DNA from: Rhodanobacter sp. T12-5
GTDB lineage: Bacteria > Pseudomonadota > Gammaproteobacteria > Xanthomonadales > Rhodanobacteraceae
Reading direction: 5' to 3'
Assembly: GCF_008329435.1 (NCBI RefSeq)
Contig: NZ_NPKN01000004.1
Coordinates: 1-64,000 of the forward strand
DNA: 64,000 nt
This document shows positions 19,049-55,409 of this stretch, one piece after another; the first letter of the stretch is position 1; the number at the start of each line of letters is the position of its first letter. Under the pieces are notes generated by a model that had not been told where the DNA came from, searched no databases, and worked only from the letters and a program-made list of their open reading frames with translations. Made by a program: the position numbers and the translations under genes.

Positions 19049-19135
19049 GTAGGAGCCCGCCCGCGGGCGATGCTCTTGTCTTGGATCTTCGTGCGGACAT
19101 CAAGGCAAGGGCATCGCCCGCGAGCGGGCTCCTAC
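19049..19135. repeat. Palindromic intergenic repeat, family B (copy 1)
   Basis: Inverted arms GTAGGAGCCCGC...GCGGGCGATGC and its complement GGCATCGCCCGCGAGCGGGC...CTAC around a roughly 35-nt spacer, between speA and bdhA (both minus strand). Other copies are at 40122 and, degraded, at 55237. Confidence 0.88.
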
Positions 19136-19144
19136 GCGCCGGAT

Positions 19145-21034
19145 TCAGTGGGTGTCTTCGGCCAGGTAGGTGTACGCGGTCAGGCCGCCGTCGAGCGCGT
19201 CGTACAACTTCCCGGCTTCATCACCGCGAACGCCCGCACTGGCGATGCGTTCGCGGTAACTCTGCCGCAATGCTTCCAGGTCGTAGCCGACGTAGTCGAG
19301 CATCAGGTCGGTGGTGTCGCCGCGGCGCACGTGGGCGAAGGTGTAGCCGTCGCCGTCCACGCGCACGTTGACCGCGTCGGTGTCGCCGAACAGGTTGTGG
19401 ATGTCGCCCAGCGTCTCCTGGTAGGCGCCGACCATGAAGATGCCGAGCCGGTAGCTTTCGCCATCCTTCAGCGCGTGCAGCGGCAGGCTGACGTCGACGC
19501 CCTCGGCGTCGACGTAGTGGTCGATGCGCCCGTCGGAATCGCAGGTAAGGTCGACGATCACGCCGCGTCGGGTCGGCTCTTCGTTCAAGCGGGCGATCGG
19601 CGCGATCGGGAAAATCTGCCCGATCGCCCACACGTCCGGGATCGATTCGAACACCGAGAAGTTGACGAAGTACTTGTCGACCAGCTTCTCGTCCAGCTCG
19701 TCGAGCGCCTGCCGGTGCGAGCGCTCGGCCGGCAGCAGGCGCGCGCGCACGGCATTGGCGATGGCGTAGTACATCTCGTCCAGCCGCGCGCGGTCGGCCA
19801 GCGCCAGCTGGCCCAGCGAGTACAGCGTCTGGCCTTCGTTGAGATGGTGCTGGGCCTCGTGGAACAGCTCCAGCGCGGGACGCCGGTCCAGCTCGTCCCA
19901 AGTCTCGCGCAGGCGACGCAGCACCGCCGGTTCGTCCGCGCACGGCGGCGGGATCGCGCCGGCCGGCACCTCCTCCACCTCGGTCACGTTGACCACCATC
20001 ACCGCGTGGTGCGCGGTCATCGCGCGGCCGGCCTCGGTGAGGATGTGCGGCGCGGGCAGGCCTTCTTCAGCCACTGCCTCGGCCAGCGACTGCACGATGG
20101 TCGAGGCGTACTGCTCGATCGAGTAGTTGATCGAGTTGTGGCTGCGCGAGCGCGAGCCCTCGTAGTCCACGCCGAGGCCACCGCCGACGTCGACGATCTC
20201 CAGCGGCACGCCCATCCGGCTCAGCTCGACGAAGTAGCGCGTGGCCTCGCGCATGCCGTTGGCGATGTCGCGCACGTTGGAGATCTGCGAGCCCATGTGG
20301 AAGTGCTGCAGCTTCAGCGTGTGCTTGAGGCCGGCCGCGTCGAGGCGTTCGATCAGGGTCAGCACCTGCTGCGGCGACAGCCCGAACTTGCCCTTGTCGC
20401 CGCCGGTGTTCTGCCACTTGCCGGCGCCGATCGAGGCCAGCCGCACGCGCACGCCAAGCAGCGGCTCGACGCCCAGCGCCCTGGCCTCGCTGAACACATG
20501 GTCCAGCTCGGACAGCTTCTCGATGACGATGTGCACGCGCAGGCCGAGCTTGCGGCCGATCAGTGCGAGGCGGATGTATTCGCGGTCCTTGTAGCCATTG
20601 CAGATCACGATGGAACCGGGCCGCGCCATCGCCAGCACGGCCATCAGTTCGGGCTTGGAACCGGCTTCCAGGCCGAAACCGTGCGTGCCGGCGGCAACCA
20701 GCTCGCCGGCCACGCCGCGCTGCTGGTTCACCTTGATCGGATAGATGGCCGTATAACCGCCTGCATAGCCATGGTCGGCAATCGCGCGGGCGAAGGCATC
20801 CTGCAGCCGCGCCAGACGATCGGCCAAGATGTCGGGAAAGCGCACCAGCAACGGCAGCCGCAAACCTTCCGCGCGGGCGCGGTCGACGATCTGCGGCAAC
20901 GACAGGGCAGGGCCGTTCGCCCCGCGCGGGTGCATCACGATTTCGCCGCCGCCGTTCACGTCCACGTAGCCGTCGCTCCAGTGCGGCACGGCGTAGGTGT
21001 GGCGGGCAGAGTCGGTATTCCAGTGGTTCGACAT
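19145..21034 (-). CDS. speA: Biosynthetic arginine decarboxylase
   Basis: PLP enzyme (fold type III) that turns L-arginine into agmatine, the first step of the agmatine route to putrescine. 629 aa, the family's usual length. Visible motifs are the PLP lysine in YPIKVNQQ, GLEAGSKPEL, the HFHMGSQ segment, VDVGGGLGVDYEG and, near the end, the Cys-containing LTCDSDGRIDHYV. The ATG at 21034 has AAGGA 8 nt before it; an in-frame TTG at 21037 is less likely. It is divergent from speE across 288 bp, so both polyamine genes share one control region. Confidence 0.96.
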   Translation of the reverse strand: MSNHWNTDSARHTYAVPHWSDGYVDVNGGGEIVMHPRGANGPALSLPQIVDRARAEGLRLPLLVRFPDILADRLARLQDAFARAIADHGYAGGYTAIYPIKVNQQRGVAGELVAAGTHGFGLEAGSKPELMAVLAMARPGSIVICNGYKDREYIRLALIGRKLGLRVHIVIEKLSELDHVFSEARALGVEPLLGVRVRLASIGAGKWQNTGGDKGKFGLSPQQVLTLIERLDAAGLKHTLKLQHFHMGSQISNVRDIANGMREATRYFVELSRMGVPLEIVDVGGGLGVDYEGSRSRSHNSINYSIEQYASTIVQSLAEAVAEEGLPAPHILTEAGRAMTAHHAVMVVNVTEVEEVPAGAIPPPCADEPAVLRRLRETWDELDRRPALELFHEAQHHLNEGQTLYSLGQLALADRARLDEMYYAIANAVRARLLPAERSHRQALDELDEKLVDKYFVNFSVFESIPDVWAIGQIFPIAPIARLNEEPTRRGVIVDLTCDSDGRIDHYVDAEGVDVSLPLHALKDGESYRLGIFMVGAYQETLGDIHNLFGDTDAVNVRVDGDGYTFAHVRRGDTTDLMLDYVGYDLEALRQSYRERIASAGVRGDEAGKLYDALDGGLTAYTYLAEDTH

Positions 21035-21272
21035 CAACTAGTTCCTTTTGACAACGGATGATGTCGTCGCAGCGGCGAGCCTTGACGGTACTGCTCTGAG
21101 AGAGAGCACGAAGCCCGAGCGACCGGAAGCCTCGCACGCCGCGGGGCCGATCGGGCTTGTCGGCCGCCGACGCGCGACGCCGGCCGTGCCAGAACGCCAT
21201 TGTAACGGGCACCTGTGACGATATGCGCAAGACGGCACGTCGCGCCGGCAGGACGTGCACTACCGTTGCCGC

Positions 21273-38478: not shown

Positions 38479-40125
38479 ATGAGTCAGAAGATCAGTCCCC
38501 TCGCCGGCAAGCCGGCACCGAAATCGATCCTGGTCGACATCCCGAAACTGCTGGCGGCGTATGCCGACCTGAAGCCCGATCCGTCGGTGGCGGCGCAGCG
38601 CGTGGCGTTCGGCACGTCGGGCCATCGCGGCAGCTCGTTCGAGCGCAGCTTCAACGAGTGGCACATCCTGGCGATCAGCCAGGCGATCTGCGAATACCGC
38701 AAGTCCAAGGGCATCGACGGTCCGCTGTTCATCGGTGCGGATACACACGCGCTGTCGCAGCCGGCGTTCGAGAGCGCGCTGGAAGTGCTGGCCGCGAACG
38801 GCGTGCAGGCAATGATCTCCAGCGGCGGTGAGTTCACCCCGACCCCGGCGATCTCGCACGCCATCCTGGTCCACAACCGTGGCCGCAAGAGCGGTCTTGC
38901 CGACGGTATCGTGATCACGCCGTCGCACAACCCGCCGGACAACGGCGGCTTCAAGTACAACACCCCCAACGGCGGCCCGGCCGATACCGACATCACCGGC
39001 TGGGTGCAGCAGCGAGCGAATGCGCTGATCGAAGGCGGCCTGAAAGAGATGAAACGCGTGCCGTATGCGCAGGCGCGCAAGGCCGCGACCACGCACGAGC
39101 ACGACTACCTCAACACCTATGTCGCCGACCTCGCCAACATCGTCGACTTCGATGCGATCCGCAGCGCTGGCGTGCACATGGGCGTCGATCCGCTGGGTGG
39201 CGCCGGCGTGCACTACTGGGCGCCGATCGCCGAACGCTACAAGCTCGACCTTACGGTGGTCAGCGCGGAAGTCGATCCGCAATTCGCGTTCATGAGCGTG
39301 GACTGGGACGGCAAGATCCGCATGGACCCATCCTCGTCGTACGCGATGCAACGGTTGATCGGCCTGAAGGAGCAGTACGACGTGGCGTTCGCCTGCGACA
39401 CCGACCATGACCGCCATGGCGTGGTCACCCGCTCCAGCGGTTTGATGGAACCGAACCATTACCTGTCGGTGCTGGTCGACTACCTGTACCGGCATCGGCC
39501 GCAATGGAGCACGAACGCGGCGGTCGGCAAGACCGTCGTCACCACCGCGTTGATCGACCGCGTGGTGCATCGTCTCGGACGCAAGCTGTATGAAGTGCCG
39601 GTCGGCTTCAAGTGGTTCTCCGAAGGCCTCTTCGATGGTTCGCTCGGCTTCGGCTGCGAGGAGAGCGCCGGCGCGTCGCTGCTGCGCCTGGACGGTTCGG
39701 TGTGGACCACCGACAAGGACGGGCTGGTGCCGGCGCTGCTCTCGGCCGAGATCACCGCGCGCGAAGGCAAGGACCCGGGCGAACTGTTCGCGCAGCTGAC
39801 CAATGAACTCGGCAAGCCGTTCGCCAACCGGGTCGAAGCGGCCGCGACGCCGGCACAAAAAGCGAAACTCGCGAAACTCTCGCCCGACCAGTTGCAGAGC
39901 CAGCAGCTCGCCGGCGAGAAGATCGAACAGGTGCTGGACAAGGCGCCGGGCAACGGCGCCGCGATCGGCGGCATCAAGGCCATCGCCGCCAGCGGCTGGT
40001 TCGCCGCCCGCCCGTCCGGCACCGAGGCGATCTACAAGATCTACGCCGAAAGCTTCAAGAGCGAAGACCACCTGCAGAGCTTGCTGAAAGAAGCCCAGAG
40101 CATCGTCGACGCCGCCCTCGCGTAG
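38479..40125 (+). CDS. pgm: Phosphoglucomutase (alpha-D-glucose phosphate-specific)
   Basis: Interconverts glucose-1-P and glucose-6-P, linking glycogen/UDP-glucose with central metabolism. 548 aa of the E. coli Pgm type: [17 protein letters not shown], the phosphoserine loop [16 protein letters not shown], metal-binding [19 protein letters not shown] and the phosphate-binding [17 protein letters not shown]. The sugar specificity differs from AlgC above, so the two are not redundant in name. The TAG stop (40123-40125) is provided by the first bases of a family-B repeat. Confidence 0.96.
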
Positions 40126-40193
40126 GAGCCCGCTTGCGGGCGATGCTTTTCTGCAGAACAGGACAAGAGCATCGCCCGCGAGCGGACCCCTAC
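40122..40193. repeat. Palindromic intergenic repeat, family B (copy 2)
   Basis: Arms GTAGGAGCCCGCTTGCGGGC and GCCCGCGAGCGGACCCCTAC around a CGATGCTTTTCTGC...GGACAAGAGCATC core. Its second to fourth bases, TAG, are the stop codon of pgm. Confidence 0.88.
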
Positions 40194-53852: not shown

Positions 53853-53878
53853 CAAGCACTTTGGCTGCAGGAACACCC

Positions 53879-55240
53879 ATGACCCGCCCCAGCTTCCGCT
53901 TCCCCGACGGTTTCCATTGGGGCGCGGCCACTTCGGCCTATCAGATCGAGGGCTCGCCGCTGGCCGATGGCGCCGGCCCCAGCATCTGGCAGCGCTTCGC
54001 GCATACGCCAGGGATGATGGCCAACGGCGACACCGGCGATATCGCCTGCGACCACTACCGTCGCTACAAGGACGACGTGCAGCTGATGAAGGCGCTCGGC
54101 CTGCACGGCTACCGTTTCAGCATCAACTGGGCACGCGTGCTGCCCGAGGGCACCGGCCGGGTCAACGCCAAGGGCCTGGATTTCTACTCGCGACTGATCG
54201 ACGAGCTGCTGGAAAACGGCATCGCGCCGAACGCCACGTTGTTCCACTGGGACTTGCCGGCCGCGCTGGACGATCGCGGCGGCTGGCTCAACCGCGACAT
54301 CGCGCACTGGTTCGCCGAGTACGCCGAAGTGATGTTCAAGGCGCTGGACGACCGCGTGCCGCGCTGGTCGACGATCAACGAACCCTGGGTGGTCACCGAC
54401 GGCGGCTACCTGCACGGCGCGCTGGCGCCGGGCCACCGCAACAAGTTCGAGGCGCCGATCGCCGCGCACAACCTGATGCGCGCCAGCGGCGCCGGCATCC
54501 AGGCCTATCGCGCGCATGGAAAGCACGAGATCGGCGTGGTGTTCAACATCGAACCGAAGTACCCGCACTCGGACAGCGCCGAGGATCTCGCCGCCACCCG
54601 CCGCGCGCATGCCTACATGAACCAGCAGTTCGCCGATCCGGCGCTGCTGGGCAGCTACCCGCCGGAGCTGAAGGAGATCTTCGGCGAGGCGTGGCCGGAC
54701 TTCCCGGCCGACGATTTCGAGCTGACGAACCAGCCGGTCGATTTCGTGGGCATCAACTACTACACCCGCGCGGTGGTGAAGCACGACGCGAACGCGTATC
54801 CGTTGCAGGCAGTGTCGGTGCGTCAGCCGAACAGGACCCACACCGAGACCGGCTGGGAAGTGTTCGAACAGGGCCTGACCGACACGCTGACCTGGTTCAA
54901 GCAGCGCTACGGCGACATCCCGCTGTACATCACCGAAAATGGCTCCGCGTTCTACGATCCGCCGGTAGCGGAGAACGGCGCACTCGACGACCCGCTGCGC
55001 ACGGACTATCTGCGCCGCCACCTCAAGGCGCTGCATCGCGCGGTCGAAGCCGGCGTCGACCTGAAGGGCTATTACGCGTGGTCGCTGATGGACAACCTGG
55101 AATGGTCGCTGGGTTTTTCCAAACGCTTCGGCCTGTACCACGTCGACTTCGCCACTCAGCAGCGTACGGCCAAGACCAGCGCAAAGCTGTATGCACAGGT
55201 GATCGAGAGCAATGGCGGGGTGTTGGACGACGACGCGTAG
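53879..55240 (+). CDS. GH1 family beta-glucosidase
   Basis: 453-aa (beta/alpha)8 enzyme cleaving beta-glucosides at the non-reducing end. N-terminal signature FRFPDGFHWGAATSAYQIEG, acid/base Glu in STINEPWVV near residue 165, catalytic nucleophile in YITENGSAF near 355, and the aglycone region WSLMDNLEWSLGFSKRFGLYHVD. No signal peptide, so it acts in the cytosol on imported oligosaccharides. ATG 53879 has AGGA 7 nt upstream. Its TAG stop is supplied by a degraded family-B repeat. Co-regulation with the LacI cluster is inferred from the operator at 53837. Confidence 0.95.
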   Translation: MTRPSFRFPDGFHWGAATSAYQIEGSPLADGAGPSIWQRFAHTPGMMANGDTGDIACDHYRRYKDDVQLMKALGLHGYRFSINWARVLPEGTGRVNAKGLDFYSRLIDELLENGIAPNATLFHWDLPAALDDRGGWLNRDIAHWFAEYAEVMFKALDDRVPRWSTINEPWVVTDGGYLHGALAPGHRNKFEAPIAAHNLMRASGAGIQAYRAHGKHEIGVVFNIEPKYPHSDSAEDLAATRRAHAYMNQQFADPALLGSYPPELKEIFGEAWPDFPADDFELTNQPVDFVGINYYTRAVVKHDANAYPLQAVSVRQPNRTHTETGWEVFEQGLTDTLTWFKQRYGDIPLYITENGSAFYDPPVAENGALDDPLRTDYLRRHLKALHRAVEAGVDLKGYYAWSLMDNLEWSLGFSKRFGLYHVDFATQQRTAKTSAKLYAQVIESNGGVLDDDA

Positions 55241-55290
55241 GAGCCCGCTGGCGGGTGATGCCTTTGGCGCTGGATTCACAAGAGCATCGG
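55237..55290. repeat. Family-B repeat, degraded copy
   Basis: GTAGGAGCCCGCTGGCGGGTGATGCC, then TCACAAGAGCATCGGGC; the right arm is broken. TAG at its start is the stop codon of the GH1 gene, the same arrangement as at pgm. Confidence 0.7.
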
Positions 55291-55316
55291 GCAAAGCCGC
55301 CACGTTGAGGCTCTAC

Positions 55317-55409
55317 CGTTCTCGCTGAGCATAGCCGCGCAGCGGCGAAGTCGAAGGGTTGTGCAAGGCTTCGACTTCGCGCCTTCGGCGCTACGCTCAG
55401 CCCGAACGG
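55317..55409. repeat. Palindromic intergenic repeat, family C
   Basis: Imperfect inverted arms 55317-55358 (CCGTTCTCGCTGAGCATAGC...GCGAAGTCGAAGG) and 55369-55409 (CTTCGACTTCGC...GCTACGCTCAGCCCGAACGG). The CGAAGTCGAAG / GCTCAG...GAACGG theme is common between genes in many xanthomonads and pseudomonads. It separates convergent GH1 and rsmG. Confidence 0.75.

Follow-up and report, generated by a model that had tools for sequence, protein, structure and literature searches.

GTAG-tagged REP elements supply the TAG stop codons of several genes in Rhodanobacter

In the soil bacterium Rhodanobacter sp. T12-5, the palindromic repeat at the end of the phosphoglucomutase gene pgm contains the stop codon of that gene, and the same arrangement recurs elsewhere in the genome. 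The repeat, referred to here as family B, is a GTAG-tagged REP/REPIN family of Rhodanobacter. The initial annotation had suggested that this repeat provides the stop codon of its upstream gene. Two results bear this out: 15 of 44 GTAG heads with an upstream gene lie exactly on its stop, and TAG is used by none of 35 pgm and none of 19 mutY orthologues that are free of the repeat at this point. We propose, with a probability of roughly 0.7, that REPINs insert and that selection then favors one harmless frame: a copy that crosses a gene's 3' terminus in register ends the reading frame with the TAG of its head.

The window, that is, the whole stretch of DNA analyzed, comprises 64,000 nt of contig NZ_NPKN01000004.1 (positions 1 to 64,000, forward strand). 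Among named genomes, those with the nearest pgm relatives belong to Rhodanobacter. The pgm gene (38479-40125, plus strand) encodes a phosphoglucomutase of 548 aa (TIGR01132, 856 bits; cut-off 778). The family-B REPIN at its end occupies 40122-40193 on the plus strand. Its left head, GTAGGAGCCCGC, is located at 40122-40133, and the TAG within this head (40123-40125, plus strand) is the pgm stop codon. The right head, GTAGGGGTCCGC, is degenerate and lies on the minus strand at 40182-40193. The intrinsic terminator pattern, a GC-rich hairpin with a T run behind it, gave one weak match here, at 40128-40141 (1 found, 0.4 in shuffles). A second family-B copy (55237-55318, plus strand, with its right limit set by eye) is found behind the gene of a GH1 family beta-glucosidase (53861-55240, plus strand; 459 aa as listed, with an uncertain start codon; TIGR03356, 588 bits, cut-off 478). 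The left head of this copy, at 55237-55248, is intact and its right side is degenerate. Here the stop codon is the TAG at 55238-55240 on the plus strand. The context GCGTAGGAGCCCGCT is identical at the two stops, and the placement of the stop codon within the repeat, as first described for both genes, is exact at both coordinates. The third family-B REPIN (19049-19135) provides no stop; its right head is situated 13 nt past the stop of a minus-strand gene at 19145-21037. Directly behind the GH1 copy, an imperfect inverted repeat is also present at 55316-55409, with 46-nt arms that are 78% complementary and 2 nt apart.

Family B carries an unpaired 5' GTAG on a short palindrome and is present in many copies. 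The 12-mer GTAGGAGCCCGC occurs 61 times in the genome, compared with 2 occurrences of a reversed-pattern control. Within the window, the pattern with up to two mismatches occurs no more often than chance predicts (8 occurrences, 8.95 expected); the repeat status is based on the 4 exact window copies together with the genome-wide count. Many of the copies form inverted pairs separated by some tens of bases, and inverted REPs forming one longer hairpin, as in a REPIN, are found, the GH1 copy being degenerate on its right side. Allowing at most one mismatch, the genome has 113 such places, and 100 of them were considered. The 58 stretches analyzed around them include every one of the 61 exact heads, along with some of the one-mismatch places. 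In these stretches, 95 heads passed the palindrome filter and 75 of the 95 carry GTAG; one exact head (L045) and one head with a single mismatch (L057, on a stop) were excluded from the 75 as chance look-alikes with no palindrome.

Gene ends were assigned with a small purpose-made codon-usage gene finder, which missed the RAYT gene discussed below. A same-strand gene end was located no more than 300 nt upstream of 44 of the 75 GTAG heads. The distances from head to stop fall into two separate groups: 15 heads are at distance 0, where the TAG is the stop, none is at 1-7 nt, and the other 29 are at 8-196 nt. The RAYT gene, which ends ...QPLLS-TAG in a head, is the 16th case, and with it included, 14 of the 61 exact heads supply a stop. 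Known families account for all 15 stop-supplied proteins: topoisomerase IB, an ADOP permease (partial, under the cut-off), a histidine kinase, a GIY-YIG protein, YoaA, MutY, RmlD, AroB, a GST-like protein, Pgm, GH1, KdsA, ARD, an FMN reductase, and a RarA/MgsA-like ATPase. Several of these genes act on DNA, namely those of topoisomerase IB, YoaA, MutY, and the RarA/MgsA-like ATPase (L013, L019, L021, L055); REPs in DNA repair genes were also remarked upon in 2013 (PMC3733652). No convincingly scored gene in this genome reads through a head in another frame, the highest such score being 13, compared with 28 to 303 for the stop-supplied genes. The suggestion that the repeat is tied to translation termination holds insofar as every overlapping head found in this genome is in the TAG frame.

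A pyrimidine (C or T) precedes 66 of the 75 GTAG heads (family-B heads, L011-L068). This applies to 14 of the 15 stop-supplying heads and to 52 of the other 60, and the same preference in both classes speaks for one insertion process. The pyrimidine may be a mark of the insertion site or a part of the element.

A natural control is provided by family A (GTGGGAGCG..., with a GTGG head), which has no stop codon inside its head. The sample consisted of the window and 60 stretches, 20 around family-A copies in this genome and 40 evenly spaced in six other genomes. It yielded 63 heads, 32 of them with an upstream gene end at distances of 6-220 nt, and none of these 32 overlaps the gene end. The difference between 15 of 44 GTAG heads and 0 of 32 family-A heads on a stop gives a Fisher p of 9e-5, the two sets having slightly different palindrome rules and distance limits and partly overlapping samples. 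In the family-A sample itself, 20 GTAG heads have a gene end; 3 are at distance 0, including the pgm copy of the window and one with a weak gene score, and the rest are at 8 nt or more. None of the eight non-GTAG family-B heads that have a gene end is at distance 0 (p = 0.09), a number too small to count. If REPs simply lie near 3' ends, some would be expected to fall on stop codons by chance, and REPs are indeed generally close to gene 3' ends (PMC3733652). However, this explanation is scarcely credible, with 15 of 44 heads at one position and none at the next seven, no case in the control family, and a head in all nine of the TAG-ended pgm genes described next.

The comparison of orthologues is clearest for pgm, which was examined in 44 of 45 Rhodanobacter genomes, including the source genome; G033 has no clear orthologue. 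Nine of the 44 genes end in TAG, and a REP head is present in each of the nine, eight by the strict palindrome rule and one (G044) by eye. The stops of the other 35 are TGA (32) or TAA (3), never TAG, and no REP head is found at any of them. The proteins with a REP head have the same length as those of most repeat-free relatives. At the nucleotide level, ...ALA-TGA becomes ...ALA-TAG, with GCC changed to GCG and the alanine kept; the last residue is the same in eight of the nine, and only in G015 is it valine. The initial annotation had proposed that the element replaced the original 3' end and slightly changed the C-terminus. For pgm this does not hold, since repeat-free relatives end at the same residue.

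The pgm heads fall into three REP families according to the sequence after TAG, all placed at the same nucleotide in different species: GAGCCCGC in G000 and G040, an RAGCGC-type in G001, G013, G015, and G038, and a GGCGGGC-type in G005, G012, and, in degenerate form, G044. On a four-gene tree, the REP state of pgm changes at least eight times over 41 pgm-bearing genomes; the tree is unrooted and leaves gain and loss undirected. It includes 42 of the 45 genomes (G019, G027, and G039 were dropped for little data), and several of its rows are under half filled. In six further pgm genes, a REP lies further downstream, starting 15-25 nt past the stop.

The recurrence of three REP families at the same pgm site could also mean that the overlap is kept for a function, for example, a hairpin starting at the stop that tunes termination or mRNA decay. 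The REPIN at 40122-40193 is predicted to fold into one long hairpin (-50.8 kcal/mol, z = -9.2), and E. coli REPs less than 16 nt from a stop are cited as lowering translation (PMC12306157). However, the fold of the GH1 copy is weak (z = -1.7), and 35 of the 44 pgm orthologues have no head at the stop. We therefore regard maintenance of the overlap for a function as highly improbable.

Similar observations were made for mutY and yoaA, each compared in 30 of the 45 genomes, and for GH1, compared in 41 rows, two of them from G037; the GH1-like genes of G002 and G003 (41-42% identity) and other weak or partial matches were omitted. A REP head supplies the mutY stop in 10 of 30 genomes by the strict rule, with G003 as an eleventh case by eye (degenerate head). 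Among the 19 mutY genes with no REP head at the stop (G003 left out), none uses TAG. The lengths of the MutY proteins with a REP head range from -3 to +2 residues around the commonest length of the others. Most of them share a C-terminal style (L234-L263) that differs from the LLLQIND... seen in many other MutY proteins, also where the species compared are sisters. It is possible that mutY gene ends were exchanged by recombination. In G013, the TAA stop of mutY is located at a family-A-like repeat. For yoaA, REP heads supply 6 of 30 stops, and three more heads are degenerate and recognized by eye (G012, G032, G043); TAG is used in 14 of the 24 others, these three included. For GH1, REP-head stops are present in 7 of the 41 rows, and G001 is an eighth, degenerate case. 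Of the other 34 rows, G001 among them, 11 use TAG. GH1 proteins with a REP head exceed the commonest repeat-free length by 0 to 4 residues. The changed C-terminus that had been claimed for GH1 is borne out to a slight extent, as the protein surpasses the commonest length in repeat-free relatives by 2 residues.

These orthologues also bear on the order of events. If the stop came first, the element would have inserted beside a pre-existing GTAG, as IS200/IS605 elements do beside their target tetranucleotide, and the TAG would be the target. The position of GTAG has been likened to the guide sequences of IS200/IS605 (PMC8266576), and several GH1 and yoaA relatives possess a TAG with no REP. Conversely, such a target is unlikely at pgm and mutY because repeat-free orthologues never use TAG there. 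The 35 pgm and 19 mutY genes, which represent the empty site in other species only, have no GTAG at the stop. Overall, we consider a pre-existing target very unlikely. Another possibility is that the repeat was first present downstream and that the native stop was lost later, so that translation continued to the TAG of the head. Many copies are situated 8-22 nt downstream of a stop, and REP-bearing GH1 and MutY proteins in some cases exceed the commonest length by 1-4 residues, as such a drift of the stop would predict. However, all strict pgm cases stop at the same residue, and a stop displaced by 13-22 nt would lengthen the protein by 4-7 residues, which is above the values found in GH1 and MutY. 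This order of events is therefore unlikely as well, although less so than insertion beside an existing GTAG.

The RAYT (REP-associated tyrosine transposase) gene of the source genome is located on the minus strand at C8:422582-423106 (NF047646, 135 bits; cut-off 80), with family-B heads on both sides, as would be expected of a cognate RAYT. Five family-B heads crowd this gene (L015), and three of them supply stops, those of a histidine kinase-like gene, RAYT itself, and the GIY-YIG gene. From homology and this neighborhood, we infer that family B is probably mobilized by RAYT in Rhodanobacter. The 18 strongest RAYT matches by genome in the genus were grouped by the repeat beside the gene. Among the 12 genes not beside family-A repeats (family B/C-like), nine have the TAG of a REP head as their stop; the head in G033 has GTAA instead, which is still a stop, and G008 and G035 are exceptions. 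In the six family-A-like RAYT genes the stop is TGA, and most of these genes adjoin an inverted repeat. A REP-head stop is not a universal property of RAYT genes, as it occurs in only 3 of the best 30 RAYT loci in 151 genomes of the order, and the rayT gene of E. coli K-12 ends in TAA.

Returning to insertion followed by selection of the frame, we suggest that insertion takes place around gene 3' ends irrespective of frame and that selection would remove copies that add a tail or cut deep into the protein. The survivors would be the class with TAG in frame and those copies located at least about 8 nt beyond the stop. An overlapping copy with TAG in frame would survive because the protein is then unchanged, as in pgm, or has its end shifted by only a few residues, as in GH1 and mutY. 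The GH1 genes of G030 and G031 (L173, L167) support this model. They read into a family-A repeat and acquire the repeat-encoded tail ...DEPERP(A/V)GAA(T/S)AAMPLP, the outcome when the head has no stop.

Several observations fit the model poorly. The 1-7 nt zone is empty, though copies there would be harmless to the protein, and distance 0 brings the hairpin even closer to the gene. A loss of translation near stops, as in E. coli, could empty this zone, yet distance 0 lies inside it. Several REP-bearing GH1 and MutY proteins are longer than is commonest in the absence of the repeat, an outcome that simple insertion ahead of the stop would not give. The repeat could also have spread with exchanged gene ends. 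There are also exceptions to the frame rule among relatives: in yoaA of G014 (L274), translation enters a family-B REP in a different frame (VGAR) and terminates at a TAG within the palindrome loop, and at the GCAG-headed copy in L295 the gene reads into the head (distance -27).

In a broader and rather doubtful extension of the model, the TAG of the GTAG head would be a kept safety device. GTAG families could then colonize sites closed to GTGG families, even the ends of housekeeping genes, with no tail added to the protein, and the head would be under double selection, as RAYT guide and as stop codon, with RAYT itself ending on TAG in the family B/C lineages of the genus.

The kind of arrangement described here is already known, because Di Nocera, De Gregorio, and Rocco reported in 2013 that GTAG REPs often provide TAG stops (PMC3733652). 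The present analysis gives that remark numbers and a natural control, with a stop-bearing family on gene ends and a stop-less family not found there. It also documents repeated natural TGA-to-TAG swaps within one enzyme gene and offers a simple case of mobile DNA occupying gene ends with no visible damage. The additions are the family itself, the counts with a no-stop control family, the recurrence at one pgm nucleotide by three families, and the stop shared with RAYT in the genus, none of which was found in the open-access literature searched.

Family B resembles the GTAG-tagged REPs of PMC3733652 in having a short palindrome with GTAG at one of its ends, in occurring as singles and pairs, and in lying near gene 3' ends. 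It differs in that the remark on stops there, in the sections consulted, comes with no count, frame test, or orthologue comparison, and Rhodanobacter is absent from the main text. The RAYT/REPtron systems (Nunvar 2010, PMC2817692; NAR 2021, PMC8266576) likewise have a rayt gene flanked by its own REPs and a GTAG recognized by the transposase, and REPs very near the rayt stop codon have been remarked upon. Here, in nine of the 12 family B/C-like genes in the genus, rayt terminates on the head's own TAG. In E. coli (as cited in PMC12306157), a REP hairpin is similarly found within 15 nt of the stop codon; in that case the stop lies outside the REP, whereas in Rhodanobacter it is part of it.
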